From: Acidobacteriota bacterium | GTDB lineage: Bacteria > Acidobacteriota > Terriglobia > Terriglobales > Acidobacteriaceae | DNA: 64,000 bases | NCBI GenBank assembly: GCA_016196065.1 | Contig: JACPYL010000010.1 | Location: 434,001 to 498,000 of the forward strand | Reading direction: 5' to 3' | Shown: piece after piece, positions 18,501-62,805 of the stretch | How the letters are laid out: every line of letters begins with the position of its first letter | Position numbering within the stretch: position 1 is the stretch's first letter | The notes under the pieces: generated by a model | What the model was told of the DNA's origin: nothing | Seen by the model: the letters and a program-made list of their open reading frames with translations, nothing else | The model's database searches: none | Position numbers and translations under genes: made by a program

Positions 18501-18694
18501 GTCGCTACCGCAGACGCCATCGTCTGCGGACTCGCGCCCGGAAGTCCCGCGCCGACGCTGATCACCGGAAACTCGACTTGAGGCAACGGTGCGACCGGGA
18601 GAAAATTGAACGCCAACGCTCCTGCCATGAGCAGGGCGGCTGCCAACAGCGAAGTCCCGATCGGACGCTTGATGAATGGAGCCGAAATATTCAT
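15581..18694 (-). CDS. RND efflux pump inner-membrane transporter (MdtC-like)
   Basis: 1037 aa with the twelve-helix HAE1 RND layout: an N-terminal helix (GTSLLAAALLMAGALAFNFLPVAPLPQVEFP), a large periplasmic loop with ...ARSQLPANLPGNPNYRKVNPADAPVL, then helix blocks including [23 protein letters not shown] (the conserved DD pair of the proton relay). A second half mirrors it and ends in [22 protein letters not shown] and GGLIMSQALTLFTTPVVYLYLDR. It follows its paralogue by 3 bp and is the last gene of the operon. The family exports drugs, detergents or bile-like compounds. The actual substrate is unknown. Confidence 0.95.
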   Translation of the reverse strand: MNISAPFIKRPIGTSLLAAALLMAGALAFNFLPVAPLPQVEFPVISVGAGLPGASPQTMASAVATPLERQFGRIAGVNQMTSTSQVGSSNIVLQFDLNRNIDAAGRDVQAAINAARSQLPANLPGNPNYRKVNPADAPVLILALTSDVLTLPRMYDAADSILSQKLAQIDGVGQVFVGGGAKPAVRAEVNPTLLNKLGIGLDTVRSALGSANANRPKGAIDGPINAWSLSANDQIFTADQYRRLIVSYNNGAPVRLGDVASVQDSVEDIRNIGLSSGKPAVLVIVFRQPGANIIATVDRVRAALPLLRSSISPAINVDIVLDRTTTVRASVRDIEVTLIISVLLVILVVFAFLRTARATLIPSVAVPLSLVGTFGAMYLLGYSLDNLSLMALAISTGFVVDDAIVVLENITRHIEAGMAPVAAAFQGAREIGFTVLSMSTSLIAVFIPLLLMGGIVGRLFREFAVTLSVAIAISLFVSLTVTPTMCAKFLRSADKEKHGRIYRFSESVFNFVLRGYERSLKFVLRFQFVTLLVTIGTAVLSVYLYIIVPKGFFPQQDTGRIGGSVQAAQDVSFAAMKDKMTQFVSLVMKDPAVDTAVGFAGGNTSANTGRMFITLKPLAERKVGADQVIGRLRGKLAVVPGATLFMQSAQDLTIGSRQSQAQFQYTLQAETLDDLNHWSPLLLQKLRSLPELRDVNTDQQDRGLEATVIIDRDTAARLGVDPSDIDSALYDAFGQRQVSIMYRQLNQYHVVMEVAPEFSKSIEALQNIYVRAANGTAVPLSSLAHFGPSNTPLAVNHQGQYPAVTLSFNLAPGVSLGKATDAINQAQRAINFPVTINASFQGTAAAFQSSLASQPLLILAALFTVYIVLGVLYESYIHPFTILSTLPSAGVGAILALLISGSELNVMGMIGIILLIGLVKKNAIMMIDFALEAEKQGKSSAEAIYDACIHRFRPIMMTTMAALLGGLPLALGTGTGSELRRPLGITIVGGLIMSQALTLFTTPVVYLYLDRLHLHFSGKRRAQERKRVQPLSPNPAT

Positions 18695-18697
18695 GGC

Positions 18698-21600
18698 TCA
18701 GTCCGCGGAGGCCTCAGTCGGCCTTTCAATCGGATTACCGATCTTCAGGCTCGAGAAACGCTGTGCCAATCGGTCGAACCACAGATAGACCACGGGCGTG
18801 GTGTAGAGCGTGAGCAGTTGGCTCACCAGCAATCCGCCAACGATCGTGATTCCCAGCGGATGACGTAACTCTGATCCGGTGCCGCCGCCGAGTGCAAGGG
18901 GCAGGCCTCCCAGCAGCGCAGCCATGGTGGTCATCATGATCGGACGAAAACGCAGCAGGCAAGCCTGAAAAATCGCTTCCTCCGGCGGCTTATGCTCGAC
19001 GCGTTCCGCCTCGAGCGCGAAGTCGATCATCATGATCGCGTTCTTCTTTACGATGCCGATCAGAAGAATGATGCCAATTAGCGCCACGACTCCCAGGTCA
19101 TTGCGAGTGAGGAATAGAGCGAGAATTGCTCCGACTCCTGCTGACGGCAACGTGGAAAGAATCGTAACCGGATGGATGTAGCTCTCATAGAGCACGCCCA
19201 GCACGATGTACACCGTGATGATCGCCGCCAGAATCAGCCACGGTTCAGAGGAGAGAGAGTTACGAAACGCTGCCGCAGTTCCTTGAAAGCTGGTGTGGAT
19301 GCTGGGAGGCAACTGAATCTTCTGCTCGGCCTCTTCGATCGCTTTGGTCGCCTCGCCCAGCGAAATTCCCGGAGCAAGATTGAAGGAAAGCGTGACCACG
19401 GGGAACTGTCCCTGATGGTTGATCGCCAGCGCCGTGTTAGTCGTCTCAAAGTGGCTGAAGGACGCAAGCGGAACCTGCTGCCCTCCGCTCGCATGCACGT
19501 AGATGTTCTTGAGCGAATCGGGGTTTTGCGAAAACTGCGGCCCGACTTCAAGAACCACGTGGTATTGATTCAACTGCGTAAAAATTGTGGAGACCTGCCG
19601 CTGTCCGAAGGCGTCGTAGAGCGCGTCGTCGATGGCCTGCGGCAGGATGCCGAGCCGGGAAGCGGTATCGCGATCAATCACCAGGTCGGCTTTGAGACCG
19701 CCATTCTGCTGGTCGGTGGCGACGTCGCGCATCGCCGGCAACTTGCGCAATTCTTCCACCAGTTTGGTCGCCCAAACCGAGAGCTCCTGTGCGTCGGCGT
19801 CTTCCATCGAGTATTGATACTGCGTGCGGCTCACGCGGTCTTCGACGGTGAGGTCTTGGAGCGGCTGCATATATAAGGTGATGCCGTTCACCTTGGCCAG
19901 TTCTGGTTGCAGTCTGCGGATAACTTCGGAAGCAGTAGTTTTGCGTTGATCGCGCGGTTTCAGGTTGATCTGAATGCGTCCGCTATTTGGAGTGGAGTTG
20001 ATACCGTCGATTCCGATGAACGAAGAAAGGCTGGCCACGTCAGGGTCTTTCATGATGACGGCCGCCAGTTCCTGCTGGCTCTTCCCCAGGGCGGTGAAGG
20101 AGACACTCTGCGGGCCTTCTGAAATACCGAGAATCGCGCCCGTATCCTGTACCGGGAAGAAACCCTTGGGCACAATGACGTACAGAAACAGCGTCAGGAC
20201 CAGCGTGCCCGCCGTCACCAGCAGTGTCGTGGTCTGGTGCCTGAGGACAAACTTCAACGTGCGTCCGTAAAATTCAATGACGCGGTTGTAATAACTTTCC
20301 GTCACTTTATAGAAGCGGCTCTGATGTGCGGGGTCGTGACGCTTGAGCAGCCTGGCGCTCATCATCGGCGTCAACGTCAGCGAGATCACTGCGGAAACAA
20401 GAATCGTAACTGCGAGGGTGACGGCGAACTCGCGAAAGAGTCTTCCCACAATGTCGCCCATGAACAGCAGTGGGATCAGCACTGCGATCAGCGAAACGGT
20501 CAGCGACACGATCGTGAATCCGATCTGCCCCGCGCCTTTCAATGCTGCATCGAGCGGCGACTCGCCCTGTTCCAGGTAGCGATCGATGTTTTCGATCATC
20601 ACGATGGCATCATCAACGACAAAGCCGGTCGAGATCGTGAGCGCCATCAGAGTCAAGTTGTTCAGGCTGTATCCCAGCACATACATGACCCCGAACGTGC
20701 CTACCAGAGACAGCGGCACGGCAACGCTTGGGATCACCGTCGCCGACAAGTTCCGCAGGAATAGAAAGATGACCATCACCACCAGTCCGATGGTGAGCAT
20801 CAATTCGAATTGCACATCCTTCACGGACGCTCGAATCGTTTCCGTCCGATCGGTGAGGATTTGAACTTTCACCGAAGCCGGTAACGACGACTGGAGTTGC
20901 GTCAACAGCGCTTTCACCCGGTCGGCAACGCTGATGATGTTGCTCCCGGGCTGGCGTTGGATGTTTACGATCACCGCGGGAGTCGTGTTCATCCACGCGG
21001 CTTGCTTTACGTTTTCTGCGCTGTCGACGGCTGAGGCGACATCGGAGAGTCGCACCGGCGCGCCATTCTTATAGGCGACAACCAGTCCGCTATATTGGCC
21101 GCTCGAATTGAGTTGGTCGTTGGCTCCAATCGTGAAGGACTGGCGTGGGCCGTCCAGCACGCCCTTGGCCTGGTTGACATTGGCGGCCGCTAGCGATGCT
21201 CGCAGGTCTTCGAGACTCATCCCATAGGACGCGAGCGCCGTTGGATTAGCCTGAATGCGCACGGCCGGCTTCTGACCGCCGCTGATTGAAACCAGTCCCA
21301 CGCCGGGAAGCTGAGAAATTTTCTGTGCCAACGCGGTGTCGGCGAGGTCCTCAACTTTTGACAGCGGCAACGTGTCTGAAGTCAAAGCCAGCGTAATGAT
21401 CGGCGAGTCAGCGGGATTTACCTTGCTGTAGATGGGCGGATTCGGCAGATCCCGTGGCAGGTATGTGGTCGCCGCATTGATGGCGGCCTGTACCTGCTGT
21501 TCTTCGATGTCGATGTTCTCGTTGAGATTGAACTGCAGAGTAATGATGGAACTTCCCAGGGAACTGGTGGAAGTCATCTGGCTCAGTCCCGGAACCTGGC

Positions 21601-21814
21601 CAAACTGCCGTTCAAGCGGCGCAGTAACGGATGATGCCATTACTTCCGGATCAGCGCCCGGATAAAACGTTACAACCTGGATGGTGGGATAGTCGACTTC
21701 GGGAAGCGCCGAAACGGGGAGCTGGAAATAGGCGACCAGCCCGACGAGAAGAAGCCCTACCATCAGCAAGGTGGTCGCGACCGGACGGAGGATGAATATT
21801 CGTGACGGGTTCAT
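18698..21814 (-). CDS. RND efflux pump inner-membrane transporter (MdtB-like)
   Basis: 1038 aa. It has the same fold and motifs as the next gene ([45 protein letters not shown]), clearly an in-tandem paralogue. Two adjacent non-identical RND subunits plus one fusion protein is the MdtABC arrangement, where the pump is a heterotrimer. Its ATG overlaps the stop of the fusion protein gene by 4 bp (ATGA), so the genes are translationally coupled. Confidence 0.95.
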
Positions 21815-23046
21815 GGCGCTCCCGTGGGCGAAGACTGCGCGTTCCTGTTTCCTCCCCCCGTGGCGGCGTGCGGCGAGACCGTGCTGCCGGCCTTGAGTTT
21901 GTCCTGTCCGTCGATCACGACAACGTCGCCGGGCGCCAGTCCACTTGCAATGGACGCCACGTTGTTTTGCGTGAAGGAAACAGTCGTGGGCCGCACTTCG
22001 ACAGTCTTATCCTGTTTGACCACGAAGACGTAGCTGCCCTGCGGACCAGTCTGAATCGCCACCGATGGGATCACCGTCGTGTCTTTATGCGTTTCCAGCA
22101 GCAGTCGAATATTCACGAATTGGTTGGGCCAGAGAGCGTTGTCCTGATTGTCGAAAATCGCTTTCAATTTGCCGGTGCCGGTTGTCTGGTCAATCTGATT
22201 GTCGATGGTGAGCAGGGTGCCGGTCGCGAGCCTGGTCTGATCGTCGCGGCTGTAAGCCTCGACCGGAAGAGCTGCCTGACGCAGATGCTGGGCCACGGTG
22301 GGAAGGTTATCTTCGGGCAGTGTGAAGAGCACAGCAATCGGTCTCAGTTGAGTAATGACCAGCAATGGATTCGCATCGGAGGCATGCACCATGTTGCCGG
22401 CATCCACCAGCCGGAGTCCGATCCGGCCGCTGATCGGGGCCGTGATGTGAGAGTAGGTCAAGTTCAGCTTGGCGTTATCGATCTGTGCCTGATCCGCGCG
22501 AACCGTTCCTTCCAGTTGATTCGCAGCGGCTTTCTGCGTGTCGACCTGCTGCTGCGAGACTGCCCCTGATTGCTCCAGCAAATTCTTGAAGCGTTCGTAG
22601 TTGAGCTGAGCGTCCTTCAACTGCGCCTGATCACGAAATAAATTGGCTTGCGCCTGATCAAGCGCCGCCTGGTAAGGCCTCGGATCGATTACTGCCAGCA
22701 GATCGCCCTGGTTGACGTTCTGGCCTTCTTTGAAATTGATCTGCGAGAGCTGGCCGTCGACGCGGCTTTTCACACTCACGGTGTTCGAGGCCGTTACGCT
22801 GCCCAGCCCCTTGAGGTAGACGGGCACATCGCGACGCTCGGCGGTGGCAACGCCAACCGGCACGACCGCGGGAGCCGAAGCTCGTGCAGTACTCGTCTTG
22901 TTGGCATCGCTGCAGCCGAGTAGGACTGCTGTGACCGCGTAGACTGCGGCAATCGAAAGCGCGTACTTGAAAATTCCGTGCGTCCAAGCCTCGGTGCAGA
23001 ATCGGCTGTGCGGCATCGAAGGACTGTTCCGTATCCGTTTGCCCAC
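21811..23046 (-). CDS. RND periplasmic adaptor (membrane fusion protein, MdtA-like lipoprotein)
   Basis: 411 aa from a GTG at 23046 preceded by GGAGG about 11 bp upstream. The N-terminus carries a lipobox (TAVLLGC), so it should be anchored to the inner membrane as a lipoprotein. The lipoyl halves are [20 protein letters not shown] and [22 protein letters not shown]. They flank an alpha-hairpin of coiled coil ([26 protein letters not shown]). The beta-barrel and membrane-proximal domains follow. It bridges the MdtB/C-like pump to an outer-membrane channel. No TolC-type gene is in the window. Confidence 0.93.
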
Positions 23047-33185: not shown

Positions 33186-34346
33186 ATGATGGCAGCAAAT
33201 CGTTTTCATCCTTTCAAGTTGATGGCCGGCATTTCATGGATCGTGTTACTAATCGCGACATCAGGATCTGTGTTTGCGGTGGATCCGCCATTCTTAGGCG
33301 TTGAGCTGACCATCCCCTCCGAAACCGTTCCGCCCGGTGGCATGCTGCAGTTGAAGGTGCAGATCACGGAGCCTAAGCCGATCTCCAAGGGTGGGCAGAA
33401 GTCCAGATTTCAAGCGAAGTTTCTCAGCCAGCCACAAGGGATTGCACTCTTTAGCCCAGATGGCGATGCCAGCGGTACAGCCGTTCTCTCGAAGGGTGCC
33501 GCGCAGTTTTCGCTTAGCTCCCCGCTTTTGTCGATGGGAATGAACATCGACTATCCGATCATGACCATTGCAATACCGGTGAAGGCGACGGCCAAAATAG
33601 GAGACTCCGCGCCATTGACTCTCGACCCGAGCCTATCGCGATGGGTCGATCCCGCGGGGCAAGACTACCCGGTCGTTCTAACCGATGGCGTCGTGACGGT
33701 TGGGGGAACGCTGTCAATTTCAGACATTATTCCCGGGGGAGGCCTCGTCCCCAAAGGTACGACGATCGCCATTCGTGGCGTCGGGTTTCAACCGGACTCG
33801 ATTGTCCAGGTGAATGAGTCGATTCCAGACACGCAGACCTATATCGGGCCGACGGAAATCGATGTCACGTTGGGGGCCGACATCGATATGACGTCGCGCC
33901 GCATTCGCGTACGAAATCCGTCCTCGAATGAACGGGCCGTTTACTATTCCTACCAGCGGACTTCAGATATGGGGCTGAGCAAACATGTCCTGGTTGCCGC
34001 AACCGTGCCGTTGTTTTCTCAGAGCACCTGGAAAGTTGCCTACTTCAGGCCTGTTTTAAATGGTGCGCAGTTCAGTGGACTATCCGTAGAAAATCCGACT
34101 GCGCAACCTGTGAAGATAAAAATGCAACTGTTTAACAGCGGTGGAACGCTGCTGAAGACACGCAACGTCAAACTGTTGCCCAGCAAGAGGTACACGCGAG
34201 ATCTCGCCGAGGTGTTCATCGGCGTGGTGGCGGGCAACGGTACGAGTGTGAAAGTTACGTCGCCCGTCGCGATTCCGATGCTGGGACTATTGGGAGACGA
34301 CACGCTCGGAACTGTGGACCCGGTTGACCCTTCGCCGACTCTGTAG
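33186..34346 (+). CDS. Secreted protein with IPT/TIG-like domain, in the sigma operon
   Basis: 386 aa with GGAGG about 6 bp before the ATG and 12 bp after the anti-sigma gene, so it is in the same operon. Signal peptide (GISWIVLLIATSGSVFA). Residues about 30-165 form a beta domain (ELTIPSETVPPGGMLQLKVQITEPKPI). Residues about 178-255 look like an IPT/TIG fold (ISDIIPGGGLVPKGTTIAIRGVGFQPDSIVQVNES ... RRIRVRNPSSNERAV). The C-terminal part resembles a further beta-sandwich (AQFSGLSVENPTAQPVKIKMQLFNSGGTLL). Its 3' end overlaps the convergent CHAT gene by 60 bp. No function is known. It may be a periplasmic partner of the anti-sigma factor. Confidence 0.75.
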   Translation: MMAANRFHPFKLMAGISWIVLLIATSGSVFAVDPPFLGVELTIPSETVPPGGMLQLKVQITEPKPISKGGQKSRFQAKFLSQPQGIALFSPDGDASGTAVLSKGAAQFSLSSPLLSMGMNIDYPIMTIAIPVKATAKIGDSAPLTLDPSLSRWVDPAGQDYPVVLTDGVVTVGGTLSISDIIPGGGLVPKGTTIAIRGVGFQPDSIVQVNESIPDTQTYIGPTEIDVTLGADIDMTSRRIRVRNPSSNERAVYYSYQRTSDMGLSKHVLVAATVPLFSQSTWKVAYFRPVLNGAQFSGLSVENPTAQPVKIKMQLFNSGGTLLKTRNVKLLPSKRYTRDLAEVFIGVVAGNGTSVKVTSPVAIPMLGLLGDDTLGTVDPVDPSPTL

Positions 34347-36887
34347 CAGGAACCAAATTCCAGCTCCAAGTACGAGGGTCGCGATCGTCACCATCGACAT
34401 CAGTTCGCCCCATGAAACAAAGCGGGGAAGCGTACCGGTGCCGTCGCCGTTGAGTACGAACGCAGCCCAATGAGCGGGGTTTGCAAGTTGCGTATTGGAG
34501 TTGATAAACGTGAGCTTGGCAGAGCGCAGCGCTTCCACTTTTGACTGCCGTTTCACGAGAGCGTAGTAATAAAACTGCTTCATGAACTCGCTGGTTGGTT
34601 GATCCGCTACCCTCCACAATGTCGTCAGCGATGAACGTGAGCCCGCGACCAGCAGGGCGCGACTGAAAGCCTGCACACCTTCTCCGCGAATCATCTTTCC
34701 ACGTTCCGTGTTACACGCCGAAAGAGTCGCTAAATTGACGTCGTGCAGGTCCAGGTCGTACAACTCGCGCAAGAAAACGTAGTCCGCGCTCCCGGCGGGA
34801 TCAGCCGGGGAAAACAAGATTCGCGAGTTCTCGGGAATATCCGCATCCGCAAAGGCGTGGGTGCTCACATGCAACAGCGGGGCACGGGGCCCTTGGGAGG
34901 CAAGGAATGCCCTCTTGATGTCCGCGCTCCCTAAGTGCATTTCCGACCGGCCTCTGGCCATTCTGGAAATGCTCGCGATCTCTTCTTCGGAGTAAGGCAG
35001 TCTAGCCAGACTCCCTGACTTTTCGAACGTCCGCTGCCCTCGTTCCTGGATCTCAATCGCGGGATTTCCAAATGCGGCGAATTCCGGCATCCAGGGAAAG
35101 TGCAATCCAGCCCGGGTCGCCGGAGCACGGCGGAAGAGAGTAGCCGTCGGCAAGTAGGAAATGTCGTATTTCTCGATGAGGAGAGTATCGGAATGGGGAG
35201 AAGCCGGAGCTAGATCGAAGGGCACCGCAGCAAGCCATCCATCAGGAACGATGACGACGTGCCGCAAGTTCGGAGGCAGGGAAGAAGCGTCAGGAAACAA
35301 AGAGCCGAGAGTACTGACCTGTTGGCGCCAGTCGTCTTTAAGGCTATCCGGGAGTTGGCGCAGAAATTCAAGCAGATGTTCCCGCTCGGCAGTGGAATAC
35401 GTGATCTGTTTTACTCCGTGCGAGTCATGAGTACACCAAAGGAGCGCAACCCGGTTTCCTGAAACCCAGTATTCCAGGAGAACCGTATCCGAATCGAGAT
35501 ACCGCTGAGTTTCACCGAGGCTGAGCGCCCCGGAATGCTTTGAGTCGCGTCCACGGCCGGCGGCGAGTCGATCCTGAAAGGTGCGGGCGCGACTTTTTTC
35601 CAGCACCGTAAACGCACTTCGAATATCGTTACGGCTGAGTAGCAGAGCGATCAAAGCGTCATACGCATCCCGTTTGTCGATGAGAAATTCGGCGCGTAGT
35701 GCCGACAACTGCAGTTGCGAGCGCGACATCTCGATGATCGCAATGGCCATCTCGTAGTCAGCCTGCGCGTCCGCCGCATGACCGGAGAGTTCATTGATTT
35801 TGCCGATCGCATAATGCGCTTTCCATTGCTCTTCCGCGATGCCGAGTCTTTCTGCTTGTGCAAGGGCGGCTTCAAACTCAGGGCGAGCTGACTGGAGATC
35901 AGATTCGCGCAGCAACGTCTCTCCCAGATAAAGGTGAGTCTGCACGACTTCGAGTTCCATGTGAGCTGACTGGGCGCGCGCCAAAGCCTTTTCGAAGAAG
36001 TGACGAGCCTTTTTTAAATCGTTCTGATCGAGGGCGTACACAATACCCATGTTCTTCAGGACGCTGATGTCGCCGTCATCGTCGTGCTGTTGTGTGTAGA
36101 GGTCCAGGGCCGACTGATAGCTGTCTAACGCTTTCCAGGGATCTCCCAGGCGGCGGTAGAGAACTCCAAGGTTCATGAAGAGGTGGGCCTTGTCACTTGC
36201 GGACAAACTGCTCGTTGCCCCGCCAACTTGCTTGTAGATCGTCAGTGCGTCCTGGTAACGCCCCAGCCGTTGATAGAGTGTGGCCTGGTTAATCTTCGTA
36301 ATCTGGCGCCAATAGTCGCTCCAAGTCTCGGCGGGATGGTTTTCCACGATCTGCAGCGCGCGTTCGTAAGCGCGTAGCGCTTCGAGATAATTTCCAGGGA
36401 AGTAATACGCGTTGCCCAGATTGTTCAGCGTTCGTACTTCGGTTTTGAGATCTTTGATGCTGCGGCTGAAAGAGAGGGCGTCGTTAAAGCTGGCCTGCGC
36501 CGCGGAATACTGTCCTAGTTCTCCTTCCGCGATACCACGACTGTTGAGCGCGTACGACTGTCCTTCGGCATCGCCTAACGCGTGGTACGCACCCAAGGCT
36601 CTCTGGGCGAAGTCGACCGCTTCACTGTTCTTCCCCAGCGAAGACGCGACGTTGCTGAGACCATTCAAGACATGGCCGAGTTGCTGAGATGGAGTGTCCG
36701 GGGACAGCGATTTGAGCACAGATTCATATGCCGCTTGCGCTTCCTGGAGAGACCCTTTGTCCTGCAGCGCATCGGCCTGGCGAATCTTTTCGTTAAGTGG
36801 GTCGTTTGGAATGCTTTGCGCAACGGAGAAGGTGCCTGCCGCAAGGTACAGGGCGAAGACCGTGACAGTGGCTCGAGCGGAGAACAT
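34287..36887 (-). CDS. Exported TPR-CHAT protein (caspase-like protease domain)
   Basis: 866 aa. An N-terminal signal peptide (TVTVFALYLAAGTFSVAQ) and a C-terminal transmembrane helix (MVTIATLVLGAGIWFLLQS) with a basic tail predict a periplasmic, membrane-anchored protein. Residues about 35-420 hold around nine TPR repeats (for example YSAAQASFNDALSFSRS, YLEALRAYERALQIVE, PWKALDSYQSALDLYTQ). The CHAT domain covers about 500-830, with the catalytic His in LLHVSTHAF near residue 672 and Cys in LATLSACNTERGKMIRGEGVQAF near 720. Both are present, so it may be active. CHAT proteins include TPR-activated proteases in defence (Craspase/TPR-CHAT) and heterocyst control. The exported form here next to an ECF sigma locus suggests an envelope stress or signalling role instead. 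Confidence 0.9.
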   Translation of the reverse strand: MFSARATVTVFALYLAAGTFSVAQSIPNDPLNEKIRQADALQDKGSLQEAQAAYESVLKSLSPDTPSQQLGHVLNGLSNVASSLGKNSEAVDFAQRALGAYHALGDAEGQSYALNSRGIAEGELGQYSAAQASFNDALSFSRSIKDLKTEVRTLNNLGNAYYFPGNYLEALRAYERALQIVENHPAETWSDYWRQITKINQATLYQRLGRYQDALTIYKQVGGATSSLSASDKAHLFMNLGVLYRRLGDPWKALDSYQSALDLYTQQHDDDGDISVLKNMGIVYALDQNDLKKARHFFEKALARAQSAHMELEVVQTHLYLGETLLRESDLQSARPEFEAALAQAERLGIAEEQWKAHYAIGKINELSGHAADAQADYEMAIAIIEMSRSQLQLSALRAEFLIDKRDAYDALIALLLSRNDIRSAFTVLEKSRARTFQDRLAAGRGRDSKHSGALSLGETQRYLDSDTVLLEYWVSGNRVALLWCTHDSHGVKQITYSTAEREHLLEFLRQLPDSLKDDWRQQVSTLGSLFPDASSLPPNLRHVVIVPDGWLAAVPFDLAPASPHSDTLLIEKYDISYLPTATLFRRAPATRAGLHFPWMPEFAAFGNPAIEIQERGQRTFEKSGSLARLPYSEEEIASISRMARGRSEMHLGSADIKRAFLASQGPRAPLLHVSTHAFADADIPENSRILFSPADPAGSADYVFLRELYDLDLHDVNLATLSACNTERGKMIRGEGVQAFSRALLVAGSRSSLTTLWRVADQPTSEFMKQFYYYALVKRQSKVEALRSAKLTFINSNTQLANPAHWAAFVLNGDGTGTLPRFVSWGELMSMVTIATLVLGAGIWFLLQSRRRVNRVHSSERVVSQ

Positions 36888-39964: not shown

Positions 39965-40900
39965 TCATTTCGCTGAGTTTGTATTGTCGAGCGCGGTTCG
40001 CAATCCTTTCGCGAGTTTTAGGGCATCGTCATTAGCCCAGAAGTGCATATAGAAGAGCCTCGGCACGTCGTCCAGCGCGTGGCTGTGCAGAGCTACGATT
40101 TGAACACCGCTGTCATTTAAGGCCTTCATAACGGCTCCAACCTCTTTGCCCGTCATCGCGAAATCTCCAGCGATCGCAGCACGTCCATTTCCGGTCGGCT
40201 GGAAATTGATGACGGTGCCTGCCCCCATCGACGGTGGTGTATCCATGCCTTCTTCGGTGAGCTTTTCTGCACGTGGCACGCTGAAGTGGAGCACGCCGCC
40301 GCTCACGTTGCCGGGACGACCCATGATCTTTTCCACTGCGACTACGTCGAATCCAAGATCTGCCGCAGTCTCTTTTGTGCCGCCGCCTTGGGGAAGAGGC
40401 GTCTTGGTAAGCCCGACCGCTTCCTTGATTGTCCGGGCCATCTTTACCGGATCACCGTGCCCGCCCATGTGGACATAGATAATCTTTGGCGATTCGCCGA
40501 TCAAATGGTTGTGGATCGCGGTGACTTCGATTCCTCCGTCTAGCAGAGCCTTGATCACAGGAGCGGCTTCGACTTCAGTTAGGACGAGATCGCCCATGAC
40601 CATCGCATCGTTGTCACCAACGTGGTGGAAAGCAGCCCAAGCGCCGAGGGCAAGGCCCGGTTTGATTTCAGCATCTCCAAGAGTGACATGAAGGTCCTTG
40701 CGCGGCATGTTGAAACGGACGACGCCTCCCGGCAGGTTGGCTCCAGGAAATCCGAAGACTACTTCGACCGCCTTCCATTCCTCGGCCGCCTTCGGGTCTC
40801 CCGTGGTCTGGGCCAGAGCGCTTGCGGGGAGGGAGACGACAAGCGTGACTATCGCCGCTAAAGTGCATGTCCGCATGAATGACAGCTTTGCGTGTTTCAT
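39965..40900 (-). CDS. Secreted protein with two DUF1259 domains
   Basis: 311 aa from the ATG at 40900, preceded by GAGAGGAA. Signal peptide (RTCTLAAIVTLVVSLPASALA). Two similar halves: residues about 35-150 (VEVVFGFPGANLPGGVVRFNMPRKDLHVTLGD ... VTAIHNHLIGESPKIIYVHMGGHGDPVKMA) and about 180-305 (VEKIMGRPGNVSGGVLHFSVPRAEK ... QIVALHSHALDDVPRLFYMHFWANDDALKLA). Each half has an H-x-H motif, HNH or HSH, followed by H within about 14 residues, as in the LppY/LpqO-type DUF1259 family. Metal binding is likely but unproven. Function unknown. Confidence 0.85.
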   Translation of the reverse strand: MKHAKLSFMRTCTLAAIVTLVVSLPASALAQTTGDPKAAEEWKAVEVVFGFPGANLPGGVVRFNMPRKDLHVTLGDAEIKPGLALGAWAAFHHVGDNDAMVMGDLVLTEVEAAPVIKALLDGGIEVTAIHNHLIGESPKIIYVHMGGHGDPVKMARTIKEAVGLTKTPLPQGGGTKETAADLGFDVVAVEKIMGRPGNVSGGVLHFSVPRAEKLTEEGMDTPPSMGAGTVINFQPTGNGRAAIAGDFAMTGKEVGAVMKALNDSGVQIVALHSHALDDVPRLFYMHFWANDDALKLAKGLRTALDNTNSAK

Positions 40901-40958
40901 ATCTGTTCCTCTCATTTGCTATTGCGCTTGGTTTGGGTCACCTGCCGTGCACTTCGCG

Positions 40959-42176
40959 CTAGTGTTTGTAGATGGTCGTGTCGTGGTGATAATTTCGCCA
41001 GTCGAACCAATAGTCTTTGAGAGCGGGCACTCGATCGAGACATTTGCCCTGCGAAGGTCCTGACGTCGCACAGCCCTGAAAATTCCATTCGCTGTTTGTG
41101 GCTGTATCGAGCAGGGTCCAGTCTTTGGTTTCGCTTTTCAGAAAGAATTCGGTTTCCTTGCCATCCACGCGGCCGACGAATACGCGAAACGATTTCTTAT
41201 CTTTGCCAACCACGAGCAGAAGCGGAGTTCCGTGCAGGTGGTCGACGATTGGAGCCTGTTTCACAACGCTGTCCCAGGGATACGCGCGGGCGGCGCCGCC
41301 GATCTCGATGCCGACGACAACGTCCCGCGATTTCAATTCAGTTCCCGGAAAGCTGATCACGACCGGCAGTTTGGCTACTTCGGGTTCCCAGTTGGCGTCG
41401 TATTCTTTGGTGAATTTCGCGACCGGCGCCAGCACTTTGCCATCGGAGACTTCGGATTTCCACTGGCCAAAAGTCAGTTCGTCGCTCGCGACAAGTTCAA
41501 GCGCAGAGCCCTTGAGCGGACCATAGATGGCTTTGCCGGTGATCTGCTGCCACCAGGTGCCGGTCTCCTTGTCGCGCATGAGGAAGTTCTGGTTGTTGAT
41601 CCCGGCAAGGTAAAAATGCAGGACCCTTCCATTCGCCGTTCGTGTCCACACCAGACCGGTGTGACAGAGCGTTCAATACGTAGCCACGATCGGGACGCCG
41701 CCGACGGCGTCATTCACGATGTGGTGGTAGGCCATTTCGCTGATGGGATAAGCGCGCGCGTCGCCACTGAAGGCAACCGTCATGATCATTTCGCCGGCAT
41801 CGAGTTTGCTCTTCGCCGCGCTTTCAAAACGGACGTCGTCGACGGGGTGGAACATCCATTCGAAGTAGTTGATCCGCGCCATGACAGCGGAGAAAGACAC
41901 AAGCACCATTGCAACGACGAGCAGAGTCCTGCGCCAGATGCCGACGCTGCGCCAAAGCGTGAGCGCAAGCGCGAGGCACAGAAGGCCAGTGAAGATGGTT
42001 GCGATCGGAGCCCGCTGACGAGTCGCCATCGCCCACCACAGCGCCCGCGGCGCCTGATAGGCAAAAGGACGAATGACGAAGGCGGGAAAAAAGAACAACG
42101 CGATCGTTATGAGCGCCGAAACGGAGAACAGCATCCAAAGCCAAGGGGAACTTCGACGCGGTGGTTTCGCCAGCAT
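40959..42176 (-). CDS. DUF3179 membrane protein, candidate selenoprotein (in-frame UGA read as Sec)
   Basis: One frame runs from the ATG at 42176 (or 42233) to the stop at 40959, interrupted only by TGA at 41675-41673. Residues 1-120 have three transmembrane helices (WLWMLFSVSALITIALFFFPAFVI, IATIFTGLLCLALALTLW, TLLVVAMVLVSFSAVMA). The rest is a DUF3179 domain: GDARAYPISEMAYHHIVNDAVGGVPIVATY, then TGA, then TLCHTGLVWTR ... FYLAGINNQNFLMRDKETGTWWQQI. Ordinary members have a C-x-x-C exactly here. The TGA replaces the first Cys, giving U-T-L-C. A SECIS-like hairpin with a GGUCU loop follows. With Sec at residue 168 the protein has 405 residues. The alternative is a nonsense mutation or base error at a Cys codon. 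Confidence 0.72.
41644..41675 (-). promoter_or_regulatory. Candidate bacterial SECIS element
   Basis: Reading the minus strand from the UGA (41675), bases 11-32 fold as GUC-ACACC-(GGUCU)-GGUGU-G-GAC: a 5-bp upper stem, one bulged G and a 3-bp lower stem. The loop GGUCU has the same bases as the apical loop of the E. coli fdhF SECIS that SelB binds. It lies 18 nt after the first base of the UGA, against about 21 in fdhF. The stem codes for conserved residues as well, so selection cannot be separated by eye. Confidence 0.65.
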
Positions 42177-42300
42177 GGGTAACGGGCCTCTAGTAACGTA
42201 AGTCCTTAATTCCGCTGTTTTGATGCCGAACATCGATTTTACAGAACTTGGCGGAACGTGGCTTCGTTACATAGTCGCTTTGATCTCACCCAGCCGCTGC

Positions 42301-46040: not shown

Positions 46041-48401
46041 TCAATGATTGGTTTCCAGAAAATAGAGAATTAGCTCCGATTCTTTTGTGAAAGGTGGAAG
46101 TTTCAACTCAAAGGTTCTGCCGATATTTGCAAATTTCAGATCCTGGCCGCCGAGTGTCGCCCGACGCAACTTGTGGTCAGATTGCAGGCTAACCTGCGGC
46201 GATTCCTGCTTTGTGGCTGCGAGTCGCAGGGCCAAGCTACCCGGCTTTTCATTTACTGCGAGGATTGGCAGGTTTGCGCGGGTCAGACGAAATCCGGAGG
46301 CCGATACCTTTGCCAATTCAATATGACGGTCCGAACGCGCGAACCCTTTGATGTGACCGTTGCTATCGTCCCACTCCTGCCAGTCAGCATTCAGTACGAC
46401 TGCCGGCTCCGCAACTGCAACGGCGAATCGCGCTTTGGATTTCGCTCTAACGTCGAAGGTCAGCCCCGCAGTCGTTCGCGTTGCCGCAGTCATTAGCTTC
46501 GAGATGTAGGTCAGGTGAGGCGTAGTGTTTGGTTGAGCGTCCAGCTTGATCGTGATGGAGTGTTTCTTCCCCGGCGCGAGATTCGGCAAAATCAGCAAGC
46601 GGTCATCAAAGGCAGGATGCACGTGTCCATCGATCAGGACCGAGTGGATAAATTTTCGCGTGTTCTCAACCCGGATACCCATGCCGCCTAGAAATTCCGC
46701 AGTATCATTCCGGCGCAGGTTCGAGAGGTCGAGTGTCATCTCGATCGCGTCGTCCGATGCCTTCCACGAATAGTTCCATTGCGCCATCGCGCGTAGTTTC
46801 TGCGCGAGTTCCTGCGGTTCCGGACAATAGATCGGAAGCGTGCCAAACTTCGTTTTCATTGCCTCATAGAACGGAAAGTTATTCTCATTCGTGATCCGCT
46901 TGTCCTTGCCTTCGTTGACGGGCGAGGAGGAGATCGAGTAGTCGTGCCACATCTCGTTGAAGATCACACCACGCCCAACATTGCGAAACATGTGGTCGAA
47001 GACGCCTTCTTCGTTGGCGGTAATCTGCGCTGTCGTATAGCTCCACGTCGGGTCATAGAACCACTGGTAGTCGGGGTGAGGGGAATTTTCGAGCAGGACG
47101 AAGTCCTTGTTCGCGCCGGAAAACCAGGTCATGTTGCCAAAACCGAGCGGTACGCTCTGCTCCAGGCCATGGGTCATGTAGAACGAGAAGCGCGCAGCGA
47201 CTTCACCGTAGTCCTCCATCGGGATGGTGTCGCCCGGATTGATCATGGACTGGATTTTGCGAATCGGAAAACCCTGCGCCCGCATGTTCTGCTCGATTTC
47301 CTCGACTGACCCGTCGAGTTCCTCGCGCCAACGCTCGGGAGTCATCTTGCGATCGATTTCGTGGAACTTACTATGGGTTCCAATCTCGCCTCCGAGGTTT
47401 TCAAGACCCTTGCCGAGCGGCGCCAGTTTGTCCCAGCCGGCTTTCTTCACGAAGCTGGAAACCCAGGTGTAGAGCGGCACGACTCCGGTATCCTGCGCCA
47501 CGCCGGTAAGAAAGTTGAGCGTCTTGAGTTGGTACTTAAGGTCGCCGCTGTTGTCTCCATCGAAACGGACAACCGCGGTAAGGTTGGCGTTGGAGACCTG
47601 CGGAGCAGGAAACGGAACATCCACATCGCCATAGGTAGCCCATTGCATCGCTCGGATCAGCGCGTTCCAGAGTTCGTTTGCATAGGCGACTTGCGGCGGG
47701 TCGTTGCGAAAAAACGTTCCTGCGCCTGCGGACGTTCCAAAGTCGCTCACGAGAACAATGCGGCTTTTCTCGCGTTCCAGGCAAGAAAGATAAGGGAAAC
47801 TGTGCTGGCCGTCGGTCGAGGCGAGTAGTACTTCTCCCCCGGACTTCGGTTGCAGCACGTTCGTGGAGGACGCGAGCACCGGGGTCAGGAACTGTGACAC
47901 CTCGAATCCTCGCGTTACATAGTGGTCATTCGAAGTCACTCGAATCCGGTACTCGGTTCCGCCCAACAGTCCTTTGTATTCCAGTCCGAGCAGATCATCG
48001 ACATCGTGGTGATCGCGTTCTTTGTCGTTCGCATCTTTGGTGGCGAGCGGGCCGTCGAGGATCACGCTGTGGTTGCCCGCAAGATAAGCGCGCAAGCGAA
48101 GGACGATCTGCGAGTAGGTCGCGTCATCCGCCTGCGTGGCCTGAGCAAACACAAGGGTGGAGTACTTCGACAGTTCCAGGTCGCCAGGCATTTCCTCTAC
48201 AAAGAGTGTGTCGTACGGAATCCCTGCCAGCGTCGCGATGCCGACCCAGCCGTGTCCGGCCAGTTGACTCGTTTCCCAGTCGTGGTGGTAGCTGGCCTTG
48301 CTCAGGAAGATGGCCAATCGAGGCCGTGTGAACGACGCAGTCGAAGCAAACGCCATCCCGCACAGAAGTAGTAGGACTGCACCAAACCGTAACTTCTTCA
48401 T
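46041..48401 (-). CDS. Secreted protein with amidotransferase-like and polysaccharide deacetylase-like domains
   Basis: 786 aa. Signal peptide (LRFGAVLLLLCGMAFAS). Residues about 27-250 look like a ThuA/glutamine-amidotransferase fold (LAIFLSKASYHHDWETSQLAGHGW ... YSTLVFAQATQADDATYSQIVLRLRAYLAGNHSVILDG). Residues about 280-540 resemble the NodB-type deacetylase barrel (LTAVVRFDGDNSGDLKYQLKTLNFL with its DGD, GGEIGTHSKFHEID with H-x-K-x-H). The final 200 residues are beta-rich. It starts the leftward group with the GH42-like and Gfo/Idh/MocA genes (42 and about 195 bp gaps). The predicted job is trimming or deacetylating a glycan. The catalytic metal site is only inferred. Confidence 0.65.
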   Translation of the reverse strand: MKKLRFGAVLLLLCGMAFASTASFTRPRLAIFLSKASYHHDWETSQLAGHGWVGIATLAGIPYDTLFVEEMPGDLELSKYSTLVFAQATQADDATYSQIVLRLRAYLAGNHSVILDGPLATKDANDKERDHHDVDDLLGLEYKGLLGGTEYRIRVTSNDHYVTRGFEVSQFLTPVLASSTNVLQPKSGGEVLLASTDGQHSFPYLSCLEREKSRIVLVSDFGTSAGAGTFFRNDPPQVAYANELWNALIRAMQWATYGDVDVPFPAPQVSNANLTAVVRFDGDNSGDLKYQLKTLNFLTGVAQDTGVVPLYTWVSSFVKKAGWDKLAPLGKGLENLGGEIGTHSKFHEIDRKMTPERWREELDGSVEEIEQNMRAQGFPIRKIQSMINPGDTIPMEDYGEVAARFSFYMTHGLEQSVPLGFGNMTWFSGANKDFVLLENSPHPDYQWFYDPTWSYTTAQITANEEGVFDHMFRNVGRGVIFNEMWHDYSISSSPVNEGKDKRITNENNFPFYEAMKTKFGTLPIYCPEPQELAQKLRAMAQWNYSWKASDDAIEMTLDLSNLRRNDTAEFLGGMGIRVENTRKFIHSVLIDGHVHPAFDDRLLILPNLAPGKKHSITIKLDAQPNTTPHLTYISKLMTAATRTTAGLTFDVRAKSKARFAVAVAEPAVVLNADWQEWDDSNGHIKGFARSDRHIELAKVSASGFRLTRANLPILAVNEKPGSLALRLAATKQESPQVSLQSDHKLRRATLGGQDLKFANIGRTFELKLPPFTKESELILYFLETNH

Positions 48402-52646: not shown

Positions 52647-53063
52647 ATGCCCGACCTTAAGATTCGCGTCCTGGTAGCCAAGCCCGGCCTGGACGGTCAC
52701 GACCGCGGCGCCAAAGTGATTGCTCGCGCCTTACGCGACGCTGGCATGGAAGTCATCTACACCGGATTGCGGCAGACGCCCGAGATGGTCGTCAACGCTT
52801 CGATCCAGGAAGATGTGCAAGTCATCGGCCTCTCGATCCTGTCGGGAGCGCACAACGCCATTGTTCCCCGCGTAATGGACCTGCTCAAGGAACACAAGAT
52901 GAATGACGTGCTCGTGCTGGTCGGCGGGATCATTCCCGATCAGGACATCGCACATCTGAAAGAAATTGGCGTTGCAGGAATTTTCCAGCCCGGCACGCCG
53001 ATGGACGACATCGTCAAATTCATCCGCGAACACGTGAAGCCGCAAACCGTAACCGCGGGATAG
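52647..53063 (+). CDS. B12-binding small subunit of an acyl-CoA mutase (methylmalonyl/isobutyryl-type)
   Basis: 138 aa. It has the base-off cobalamin motif [19 protein letters not shown] (DxHxxG with the His ligand), [10 protein letters not shown] and [25 protein letters not shown]. Length and N-terminus ([15 protein letters not shown]) match the detached C-terminal B12-binding subunit of methylmalonyl-CoA or isobutyryl-CoA mutase. The large subunit is not in the window. It fits a propionyl- or branched-acyl-CoA route near the leucine cluster at 58-63 kb. Confidence 0.93.
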
Positions 53064-55886: not shown

Positions 55887-57359
55887 GTGAGACCCAGGTT
55901 TGAACTTCTTGATCGCCCGTTGCTTGATCGCATCCTTGAAGAAGCGTTCGCGCTTCTCATGAATCCCGGTGTGAAAGTTTCCAGCCCCGAAGCGACGGAA
56001 CTGTTGGCCTCCGCTGGTGCCCGAGTCGAGGACGGCGTTGCTCACATCCCGGAGCCACTCGCTCGTCGTGCCCTGCAGTCCGCTCCCCGTGAATTCTTTC
56101 TCTACGATCGCGCCGGCCAGTCGGCCGTGCACTACGGTGCCGACGAGGTTCATTTCGATCCCGGCTCTTCCTGCCTCAACGTGCTTGATCCAGACACTCT
56201 GCAGCCGCGCCTGGCGCAGTCCGCCGATCTGGTGCGGCTCATTCAAGTAGCCGAGACTTTGCCGCAGTACGCAGCGCAATCTACGGCCGTCGTCTGCAAC
56301 GACATTCCTTCGGAGATTGGCGACTTCTACCGCTTGCTGTTGGTGTTGTGGCATTCCAACAAGCCAATCGTCACGGGCGCATTCAGCGCGGACACTCTGC
56401 AGGCCATGATCGACCTGCTGGCCGCTGATAGTGGCAGTCTCGATGCGCTGAAGAGCAAGCCCAGAGCTGTGTTCGACGTGTGTCCTTCTCCTCCGTTGCA
56501 CTGGACCGAGTTCGCCGCGTACAACCTCGTTGCGTTGGCGCGCGCCGGCATTCCCGCCGAACTGATCTCGATGCCACTCGCAGGCGCTACGGGACCAGTT
56601 ACGCTCGCAGGCTCGGTCGTGCAACACGCCGCCGAAAGTATCAGCGGTATCACGATTCATCAACTCGCAGCGCCTGGTGCTCCGATTGTGTGGGGAGGGG
56701 CTCCAGCCATCTTCGATATGAGTACGGGCGGCGCTCCCATGGGAGCCATCGAAACCGCCATGCTGAACATTGCCTGCACGCAAGTCGGCAAATATCTGGG
56801 CCTACCCACGCATGCCTACCTGGTGGCGACCGACTCTAAACTGGTCGACGCGCAAGCCGGCATGGAGAGCAGCATCTCTGCCGCACTCGGTGCAATGGCG
56901 GGCATCAACATGATTTCCGGCGCTGGCATGTTGGATTCGCTGGCCTGCCACAGCGTGGAGAAGTTAGTCGTCGATGCCGAAGCAATCGCGTCCGCGCAAA
57001 GACTGGTCGCTGGAATTGAACCGCGCACCGAGAGCCTGGCGGTCAACATGTTTGCCCAGGTCGGATTCCACGGCGACTTCCTCAAGTTGAAAGAGACTCG
57101 AGCGCTGTTCCGAAGCGAACAGCATTTTCCTTCTGCGGTCATCGATCGCAGCGCCCGCGAAGAACCCGAGAACGCACCGCCACGCAACGCATTCGATCGC
57201 GCCCGCGATCGTGTCGACCAGTTGAGTGCGTCCTACTCGCAACCAACCCTCTCACCGCGCGTGAAGCAGGATCTTCTTACCATCGCCTCGCGAGAAGCCA
57301 AACGCGCGGGACTTCAGTATCTGCCGGGCATTGAACAACCACTGCGGTCAACCATGTAG
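55887..57359 (+). CDS. Trimethylamine methyltransferase (MttB) superfamily protein, non-pyrrolysine type
   Basis: 490 aa from a GTG at 55887, 2 bp after the corrinoid-protein stop. MttB-like barrel with FELLDRPLLDRILEEAFALLMNPGVKV, VHFDPGSSCLNVLDPDTLQPR, PVTLAGSVVQHAAESISGITIHQLAAPGAPIVWGGAPAIFDM, LGAMAGINMISGAGMLDS. The frame has no internal amber codon, so it is not a true pyrrolysine MttB. Related proteins without pyrrolysine demethylate glycine betaine or other quaternary amines. No corrinoid activator gene (RamA type) is in the window. The methyl donor is unknown. Confidence 0.88.
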   Translation: MRPRFELLDRPLLDRILEEAFALLMNPGVKVSSPEATELLASAGARVEDGVAHIPEPLARRALQSAPREFFLYDRAGQSAVHYGADEVHFDPGSSCLNVLDPDTLQPRLAQSADLVRLIQVAETLPQYAAQSTAVVCNDIPSEIGDFYRLLLVLWHSNKPIVTGAFSADTLQAMIDLLAADSGSLDALKSKPRAVFDVCPSPPLHWTEFAAYNLVALARAGIPAELISMPLAGATGPVTLAGSVVQHAAESISGITIHQLAAPGAPIVWGGAPAIFDMSTGGAPMGAIETAMLNIACTQVGKYLGLPTHAYLVATDSKLVDAQAGMESSISAALGAMAGINMISGAGMLDSLACHSVEKLVVDAEAIASAQRLVAGIEPRTESLAVNMFAQVGFHGDFLKLKETRALFRSEQHFPSAVIDRSAREEPENAPPRNAFDRARDRVDQLSASYSQPTLSPRVKQDLLTIASREAKRAGLQYLPGIEQPLRSTM

Positions 57360-61590: not shown

Positions 61591-61991
61591 TGCGCAATTG
61601 CGCCTCCCAAAACCGAACAAAACGGTTGTGATGAACGGCACCGCAATCGACCGTCAAAGCCGCCATCCTGCAGCGTGCCCAATTTCTACGTCTACATCAT
61701 GGCGAGCAAATCCCGTGTCCTTTATGTGGGCGTCACGAGTGATATTAGAAACAGAGTCTGGGAACACAAGCACGGCGAACTTCCTGGCTTCACCAGCAAA
61801 TATCAAGTCCATCGTCTTGTATACTTCGAACGGTTCCAGTATGTGACGCACGCCATCGCGCGCGAAAAAGCAATCAAAGGGTGGCTGCGAAAGAAGGAGA
61901 TTGCGCTCATCGAAGCGGAAAACCGTAGATGGGAAGACCTGAGCGACTCATGGTACAAGGAGCAGGTCCTTCGCTTCGCTCAGGATGGCAG
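61486..61991. mobile_element. GIY-YIG gene bracketed by 30-bp inverted repeats
   Basis: The GIY-YIG frame (from 61675) lies between two inverted 30-bp repeats (61486-61515 and 61962-61991; 29 of 30 match). The right copy is read through in frame as part of the protein tail (VLRFAQDGS). The whole unit is 506 bp. It could be a repeat-associated mobile unit, by analogy with REP sequences and RAYT transposases. I see no target-site duplication. Confidence 0.5.
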
Positions 61992-62022
61992 TTCTCATAG
62001 TAACAACGGCCCTGGTTACAAA
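61675..62022 (+). CDS. GIY-YIG nuclease domain (UPF0213/YhbQ-like), fused in frame to the next gene
   Basis: From the GTG at 61675: VYIMASKSRVLYVGVTSDIRNRVWEHKHGELPGFTSKY carries the family's Y-V-Y and Y-V-G forms of GIY-YIG and the catalytic-type R in RNRVWEHK. Then VYFERFQYVTHAIAREKAIKGWLRKKEIALIE and NRRWEDLSDSWYKE. Free-standing members of this family end about here (95 residues). Instead the frame continues through the repeat (VLRFAQDGSSHSNNGPGYK) without any stop into the enoyl-CoA hydratase at 62023, so a 376-residue fusion could be made. Confidence 0.78.
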
Positions 62023-62805
62023 ATGAACTACAGCACCCTTCAACTCGCATTCGAGCACGGCATCGCGACCGTCACTCTCAACCGTCCCGAGAAGCGCAAC
62101 GCGATCAGCTACGAGTTGATCGACGACCTCGGGCGTGCGCTGGATGAGGTGAAGATTTCATCTGCTCAAGTGCTGATTCTCACCGGAGCAGGGAAGGCCT
62201 TCTGCTCGGGCATGGACCTCGACAATCTGAAAGCGCTCACCGGTCGCACGCCGGAGCAAGGTCTCGCCGATACCAGGAAAATGGCGGCGTTGTTCCGCGG
62301 CCTCTACGATTTTCCCAAGCCGACCATTGCCGCAGTCAACGGGGCCGCCGTGGCGGGAGGCACCGGACTCGCGACGCTCTGTGACTTTACTTTGGCAGTG
62401 CCGGAAGCCAAGTTCGGGTACACCGAGGTAAGAATTGGCTTCGTGCCCGCAATCGTTTCAACCTTCCTGCTCCGCCAGGTGGGAGAAAAAATTGCCCGCG
62501 ACTTACTGCTGACCGGCCGGCTCTTCGACGCTGAGGAGGCCCTGCGGATTGGCCTGATCAACGAAATCGTTTCACCAGAAAAATTGCACGCTCGCGCCCG
62601 TGAACTCGCAGCCCAGTTGATGGAGAATTCCCCCGCATCTCTCGCTTATACCAAGCGGCTGTTGAGCGATCACGCGCGCGAAGAACTGGATGCGCAGATT
62701 GAGTCCGCTGTCCGCGAGAACGCCGCCATCCGCGACACCCCCGATTTCCGCGAAGGGGTGACGTCATTTCTCGAAAAGCGCAAACCGAAGTGGACGGGGC
62801 AATGA
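62023..62805 (+). CDS. Enoyl-CoA hydratase, probably methylglutaconyl-CoA hydratase-type
   Basis: 260 aa from the ATG at 62023, where crotonase homology starts (MNYSTLQLAFEHGIATVTLNRPEKRNAIS). Oxyanion-hole segments VLILTGAGKAFCSGMDLDNLK and AAVNGAAVAGGTGLATLCDFTLAVPEAKFGYTEVRIGFVPAIVSTFLLRQVG, the latter holding the catalytic Glu position, then ARDLLLTGRLFDAEEALRIGLINEIV. Full length and full C-terminus. Between the carboxylase, HMG-CoA lyase and thioesterase genes its likely job is 3-methylglutaconyl-CoA hydration in leucine breakdown. There is no ribosome site before the ATG, and the upstream GIY-YIG frame runs straight in. Confidence 0.88.
   Translation: MNYSTLQLAFEHGIATVTLNRPEKRNAISYELIDDLGRALDEVKISSAQVLILTGAGKAFCSGMDLDNLKALTGRTPEQGLADTRKMAALFRGLYDFPKPTIAAVNGAAVAGGTGLATLCDFTLAVPEAKFGYTEVRIGFVPAIVSTFLLRQVGEKIARDLLLTGRLFDAEEALRIGLINEIVSPEKLHARARELAAQLMENSPASLAYTKRLLSDHAREELDAQIESAVRENAAIRDTPDFREGVTSFLEKRKPKWTGQ

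Follow-up and report, generated by a model that had tools for sequence, protein, structure and literature searches.

An in-frame TGA that very likely encodes selenocysteine in a DUF3179 gene of Acidobacteriota, with a cysteine form in relatives lacking the selenocysteine machinery

Does the single TGA inside a DUF3179 gene of Acidobacteriota end translation, or is it read as selenocysteine (Sec)? The question is raised by a 64,000-nucleotide stretch of contig JACPYL010000010.1 (assembly GCA_016196065.1, an Acidobacteriota bacterium; positions 434,001 to 498,000 of the forward strand), which is called the window hereafter and whose numbering is used for all coordinates. A first-pass annotation, made from the sequence letters, had proposed a candidate selenoprotein whose frame is intact around TGA 41675-41673, and this description holds, since 405 residues are open once the codon is translated as U (residue 168, within VATY-U-TLCHTG) and both sides match the same family (Table 1). 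The joined frame matches PF11376 at 210.2 bits over residues 112-400 (cut-off 27), and each side of the TGA reaches the cut-off alone, with 48.5 bits upstream, where profile positions 7-64 are already covered, and 125.9 bits downstream. Pfam finds no domain but DUF3179 in the 405-residue product, and no NCBIfam model matches it at an E-value of 1. The gene is single-copy in the source genome, with one TGA, and an alternative in-frame start lies at ATG 42233. On the strength of sequence comparisons, we consider that this TGA is in all likelihood decoded as Sec via a predicted Sec insertion sequence (SECIS) hairpin; the TGA occupies a cysteine (Cys) position of DUF3179 and the genome has SelA, SelB, SelD, and tRNA-Sec. 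The machinery, a check that the annotation had suggested, is represented in the source genome by SelA (549 bits, cut-off 268), SelB (380 bits, cut-off 242), SelD (364 bits, cut-off 125), and a tRNA-Sec (Rfam 67 bits, cut-off 47) that ARAGORN also reports, as tRNA-SeC with anticodon tca. A second Rfam match to tRNA-Sec (47.3 bits, barely above the cut-off) was rejected; ARAGORN makes it a tRNA-Ser.

The TGA had been placed at the first Cys of a C-x-x-C motif, and comparison with homologues, which had also been proposed as a check, agrees with this placement. A protein search with the DUF3179 query gave 4431 relatives, and in all of the 120 closest, which were those listed, the match begins after the TGA and covers at most 57% of the query; such shortened database entries seem to be what gene callers would produce by starting after this codon. 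An antisense open reading frame (ORF) of 316 codons (41232-42182, + strand) overlaps the greater part of the DUF3179 gene and could lead gene callers astray at this locus. At the DNA level, a scan of genome contigs (best 80 of 123 relatives, from acidobacterial groups) and a further 30 loci found in 396 genomes of this phylum together gave 110 loci, two of which were dropped for an N at the critical codon (L117 and L139, draft genomes with runs of N over the UGA and the hairpin). Each of the 108 readable loci has either TGA (95) or TGC (13) at the site, and after removal of identical proteins 99 distinct orthologues remain, 88 with TGA and 11 with TGC. One genome from the same family as the source genome (G163) has a DUF3179 protein identical to that of Edaphobacter lichenicola. 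His151, His152, Cys171, and His172 are invariant in 47 aligned sequences. Gene decay in relatives, which the annotation had named as evidence that would speak against Sec, is absent: rough ratios of nonsynonymous to synonymous substitution rates (dN/dS) against six relatives are 0.08-0.24 on both sides of the TGA, indicating that purifying selection acts upstream as well as downstream of it. Among 20 more distant DUF3179 loci, picked for having a TGA, the codon lies at the same site in 19 and close to the frame end in one (L168). U-x-x-C is found in 10 of these 19 forms and the second Cys is replaced by A, D, or V in nine; thus Cys171 is not essential family-wide. The nine (L153, L154, L156-L158, L160, L163, L164, and L167) have U-P-L-A, U-P-I-D, or U-P-L-V, the published motif being UxxC/T.

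We also examined how the codon is distributed relative to the Sec machinery. Among the 396 genomes scanned, SelA (E 1e-60) was found in 252 and a DUF3179 match (E 1e-20) in 103, of which 32 with a best E-value of at most 1.2e-84 were taken as carrying orthologues (the next genome has 3.3e-57). The 22 TGA genomes in this set (G001 and G031 included) all have the TGA at this site, and all of them have SelA and SelB, versus none of the 10 Cys genomes for either protein (Fisher 1.6e-8 for SelA, in genomes that are not independent). A tRNA-Sec is present in 21 of the 22 TGA genomes, being undetected in G215 (88% complete), and in none of the 10 Cys genomes, which are 99-100% complete but close kin and hence not ten independent cases. 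The remaining 71 genomes with a DUF3179 match divide into 25 with a TGA, of which 22 have SelA, and 46 without one, of which 40 have SelA. Each of the three TGA genomes in this distant group that lack a SelA match (G317, G080, and G046) contains tRNA-Sec; G046 also has SelB, G080 has a piece of SelA at a contig edge, and G317 showed neither SelA nor SelB on recheck. Elsewhere among acidobacteria, Occallatibacter riparius is credited in PMC12013277 with 3 known selenoprotein genes.

The predicted hairpin follows the UGA closely. In RNA order, the UGA is followed by 8 nt, (U/C)CACACC, the loop GGUCU, and GGUGUGG, giving a 7-bp stem, and the 21-mer has a minimum free energy of -9.2 kcal/mol. The hairpin and its GGUCU loop, which the annotation had likened to that of the E. 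coli fdhF SECIS, are present, but the distance of 18 nt given there counts the UGA itself, and 15 nt lie between the last base of the UGA and the loop. The bacterial SECIS (bSECIS) model, as given in the available portion of PMC13188914, has a loop-UGA spacing of 16-37 nt in a wording that allows either count, and with the first loop base being the 16th after the UGA, the spacing observed here is borderline; the 5-nt loop with G first, the 7-bp stem, and an energy below -7.5 are like that model. The annotation had further considered chance to be unlikely, which the source sequence alone does not bear out, because the fold of an 81-nt segment has z = +0.58, 141 of 200 shuffled sequences being as stable, and an Rfam search of the hairpin region returned no match. 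That the hairpin goes beyond chance is decided by the comparison of 88 TGA and 11 Cys orthologues, and there the claim does stand.

The hairpin RNA doubles as code for the conserved peptide CHTGLVW, so conservation of the RNA and of the peptide must be told apart. In the 88 TGA forms, codons +4 to +8 are CAC for H (87), ACC for T (83), GGT for G (83), CTG for L (83), and GTG for V (86). Five-codon windows were scored by how far the share of identical codon pairs exceeds what pooled codon use predicts, and each of the 8 highest-scoring windows out of 365 overlaps the hairpin codons. In the 11 Cys forms, which encode the same peptide, the hairpin codons are variable, and the highest-scoring windows are in other parts of the gene. 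The full 7-bp stem is observed in 80 of 88 TGA forms versus a mean of 17.1 and a maximum of 27 expected from 500 synonymous redraws with each gene's own codon usage, and in 1 of 11 Cys forms versus 1.7 expected. Likewise, 83 of 88 TGA forms and 1 of 11 Cys forms have GGTCT as the loop, and the 21-mer folds at -7.5 kcal/mol or lower in 82 of 88 versus 2 of 11. Five of the nine deviating TGA forms (L028, L031, L038, L128, and L150) constitute one clade with other loop letters, in which the second loop position is still G and the stem of L038 has U-A in place of C-G; the remaining four have lost one or two base pairs. The codon and stem controls keep no phylogeny, relatedness being controlled by the Cys clade and by the rest of the gene. 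Because most hairpins are identical, formal covariation is thin: among 11 distinct hairpins, three pairs have changed on both sides, and 100 of 500 shuffles reached the observed score.

The Cys forms may represent descendants of a Sec form. A quick tree was built from 84 orthologues plus 19 distant TGA forms, the Sec/Cys site being masked; in it, the 11 Cys rows form one clade (Shimodaira-Hasegawa-like approximate likelihood ratio test support 100) nested in a 58-row node (support 97) that holds 47 Sec rows. One change thus explains all Cys rows, and with the tree rooted on the distant forms a Sec-to-Cys reversion would be the simplest history, to be read with the cautions that the outgroup was selected for TGA, two of its rows are very long-branched, 33 of 100 inner branches fall below a support of 80, and the tree is not bootstrapped. 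Several positions differ between the two groups: in place of Q196 (87 of 88 Sec forms) and F198 (88 of 88), 11 of 11 Cys forms have G and A, respectively; in place of G206 (86 of 88), 10 of the 11 have S; and W/Y/F208 and position 212 (mostly I or V) have become I and S in all 11. These substitutions may reflect a rebuilt pocket, which with a single clade is indistinguishable from common descent. Edaphobacter and its allies are a lineage without the Sec machinery, with Cys at the site and with a hairpin that is no longer kept. Sec-to-Cys changes are described as rare in prokaryotes, with FdhA and SelD named, in PMC13188914, and the abstract of PMC1794560 makes a similar statement on FdhA/SelD reversions. 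The present case is like the reversions described there in having a Cys clade amid Sec forms, whereas it concerns a different family and is tied to the lack of SelA, SelB, and tRNA-Sec in 10 of 10 Cys genomes.

Structure prediction suggests that the product has three helices in the membrane and two Rieske-like domains that are duplicates of each other, with Sec in the first, and the positive-inside rule suggests that the DUF3179 part is probably outside, in the periplasm. The predicted domains resemble a metal-carrying fold. The Rieske ligand pattern C-x-H...C-x-x-H (5-45 residues between the halves, U counted as C) was found in none of the 99 orthologues. Compared with proteins of the Rieske fold, among them small subunits of nitrite reductase (3c0d, 4aiv, and 2jo6), the domains here differ in having no cluster ligand pattern, in being duplicated, and in carrying the Sec motif in the first copy. 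A search for a solved relative by sequence gave no match up to an E-value of 10, Foldseek against the PDB gave nothing below 0.001 for either the whole model or the domain model, and comparing profiles with six Rieske domains from the source genome gave a weak result. The idea that Sec takes the place of a Rieske cluster ligand was dropped: Sec lies approximately 12-15 residues before the first ligand, as estimated from VIA-align ranges and a weak second-half profile alignment, using what we take to be the Rieske ligand positions.

If the known bacterial pathway applies, SelB would deliver Sec-tRNA-Sec at the GGUCU loop, and the ribosome would insert Sec168 in place of stopping. A nonsense mutation, a pseudogene, or a sequencing error, with the downstream frame being a relic or a separate short protein from GTG 41651, is hardly credible here. 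Although it would fit the short coverage of the 120 listed matches, whose genes seem to be called from past the TGA, it is opposed by the 88 distinct orthologues that share a TGA at this very codon, by the low dN/dS on either side, by the restriction of TGA within the clade to genomes having SelA and SelB, and by the match of the upstream part alone to PF11376. Very improbable, too, is readthrough without selenium, in which a near-cognate or suppressor tRNA would read the UGA or a regulatory stop would yield two products. Bacterial UGA readthrough is known, and the sequence data are compatible with it; however, the non-TGA codon is always Cys (13 of 13), TGA and Cys split by SelA and SelB, and a hairpin whose loop starts with G stands at a fixed place in TGA forms and is not kept in Cys forms. 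Moreover, ordinary ORFs of the window also end in UGA (e.g., 46041-48401).

With Sec decoding as the preferred reading, the role of the residue can be considered. We somewhat favor a redox role for the predicted membrane-anchored periplasmic selenoprotein. The product would be anchored by its three helices, with both Rieske-like beta domains probably in the periplasm; Sec168 would react with a substrate, in this clade Cys171 would resolve it through a selenenylsulfide, and help from the conserved His residues would be likely. It is possible, though less likely, that Sec instead binds a metal or cofactor. The invariance of the two His residues, Cys171, and His172, the likeness of the domains to a metal-carrying fold, and the C-T-L-C-H of Cys forms, which spells the c-type haem motif CxxCH, are in line with such a role, but no orthologue has the Rieske ligand pattern, the motif is not kept in the nine distant TGA forms with A, D, or V instead of the second Cys, and we know of no haem thioether formed at Sec. 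A broader proposal, to which we give about even odds, is that DUF3179 is a selenoenzyme on a duplicated, cluster-less Rieske fold in the acidobacterial membrane, an iron-sulfur scaffold re-used for selenium at a new site, and that in the Edaphobacter branch the Sec enzyme turned into a Cys enzyme after machinery loss, with the SECIS erased and the pocket rebuilt (Q196G, F198A, W208I, and I212S).

The candidate selenoprotein itself is thus supported, but the annotation, which was aware of no established one in this family, has to be completed on that point. DUF3179 figures among the selenoprotein families, with UxxC/T as its motif, in the portions available of a 2022 review (PMC9312934), where Zhang and Gladyshev 2007 is the source cited, and of a 2026 review (PMC13188914), and it also appears in a table of PMC9230427, as far as that text is available. 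Several full-length, presumably Cys, members are named "DUF3179 domain-containing (seleno)protein" by NCBI. The gene described here belongs to the same Pfam family (PF11376) and has Sec first in U-x-x-C; the available family rows of the two reviews give an example accession and a motif and no fold or role, and the available text of neither mentions Rieske. What is added is a membrane-anchored Acidobacteriota clade, SECIS conservation, the Sec/Cys split, and a fold prediction; the fold, this clade, and this Sec-to-Cys case were not found in the full-text literature searched, insofar as it was available, with subscription journals and preprints mostly outside it. DUF3179 as a selenoprotein family is therefore not new, and the present gene is a well-supported additional member, while the three membrane helices and the duplicated Rieske-like domains without Fe-S ligands, with Sec in the first, are new as a prediction.

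Table 1. Window coordinates of the DUF3179 gene, its predicted elements, and the adjacent gene
Feature	Position	Strand	Details
Whole DUF3179 frame, TGA read as Sec, 405 residues (U168)	40959..42176	-	Start ATG 42176-42174; stop TAG 40961-40959
In-frame TGA (residue 168), predicted to encode Sec; U of U-T-L-C-H	41673..41675	-	95 TGA / 13 TGC in 108 readable orthologous loci
N-terminal membrane part, residues 11-99, three long helices	41880..42146	-	AlphaFold2 helices 11-34, 43-75, 80-99; mean predicted local distance difference test (pLDDT) 93.8
First Rieske-like domain, residues 137-236; holds U168, C171, H172, and conserved H151, H152	41469..41768	-	
Second Rieske-like domain, residues 292-390; copy of the first lacking the Sec motif	41007..41303	-	
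Predicted SECIS hairpin	41646..41664	-	Stem 41664-41658 with 41652-41646; loop GGUCU 41657-41653
Downstream same-strand gene, two DUF1259 domains (PF07485)	39965..40915	-	Begins 43 nt past the DUF3179 stop

The downstream DUF1259 gene is a possible operon partner of the DUF3179 gene and is not a recurrent neighbor. In a survey of 98 neighborhoods (from 101 given, some genomes being represented twice), no family was common to most loci, the top one occurring in 19 of 98 with the gene itself and the antisense frame set aside, and no functional lead emerged from these 98 loci. Inspection by eye of the remaining in-frame TGAs of the window gave no second selenoprotein candidate. Elsewhere in the window, one ORF (61675-62805, + strand) combines an N-terminal GIY-YIG nuclease (44.5 bits) with an enoyl-CoA hydratase (222.5 bits) in an odd fusion, and one stretch of the + strand (52647-53063 and 55887-57359) encodes both a protein with a B12-binding domain and a trimethylamine methyltransferase of the MttB type. 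The reverse strand carries an adjacent pair of AcrB-type resistance-nodulation-division (RND) transporters beside a membrane-fusion protein (15581-23046) and a TPR-CHAT protein (34287-36887; CHAT 184 bits).

As regards its meaning, this would be a widespread soil selenoprotein that is easily missed because the 120 closest listed entries, drawn from a very large set of proteins, are fragments beginning past the TGA. The Sec and Cys forms, with the hairpin present in one and erased in the other, would form a naturally occurring pair in which to study the benefit of selenium and the way an enzyme adapts to losing it. According to the available part of the 2022 review (PMC9312934), the majority of known selenoproteins are built on a thioredoxin-like fold; if the fold assignment proposed here is true, Sec would be used in this family outside that fold.
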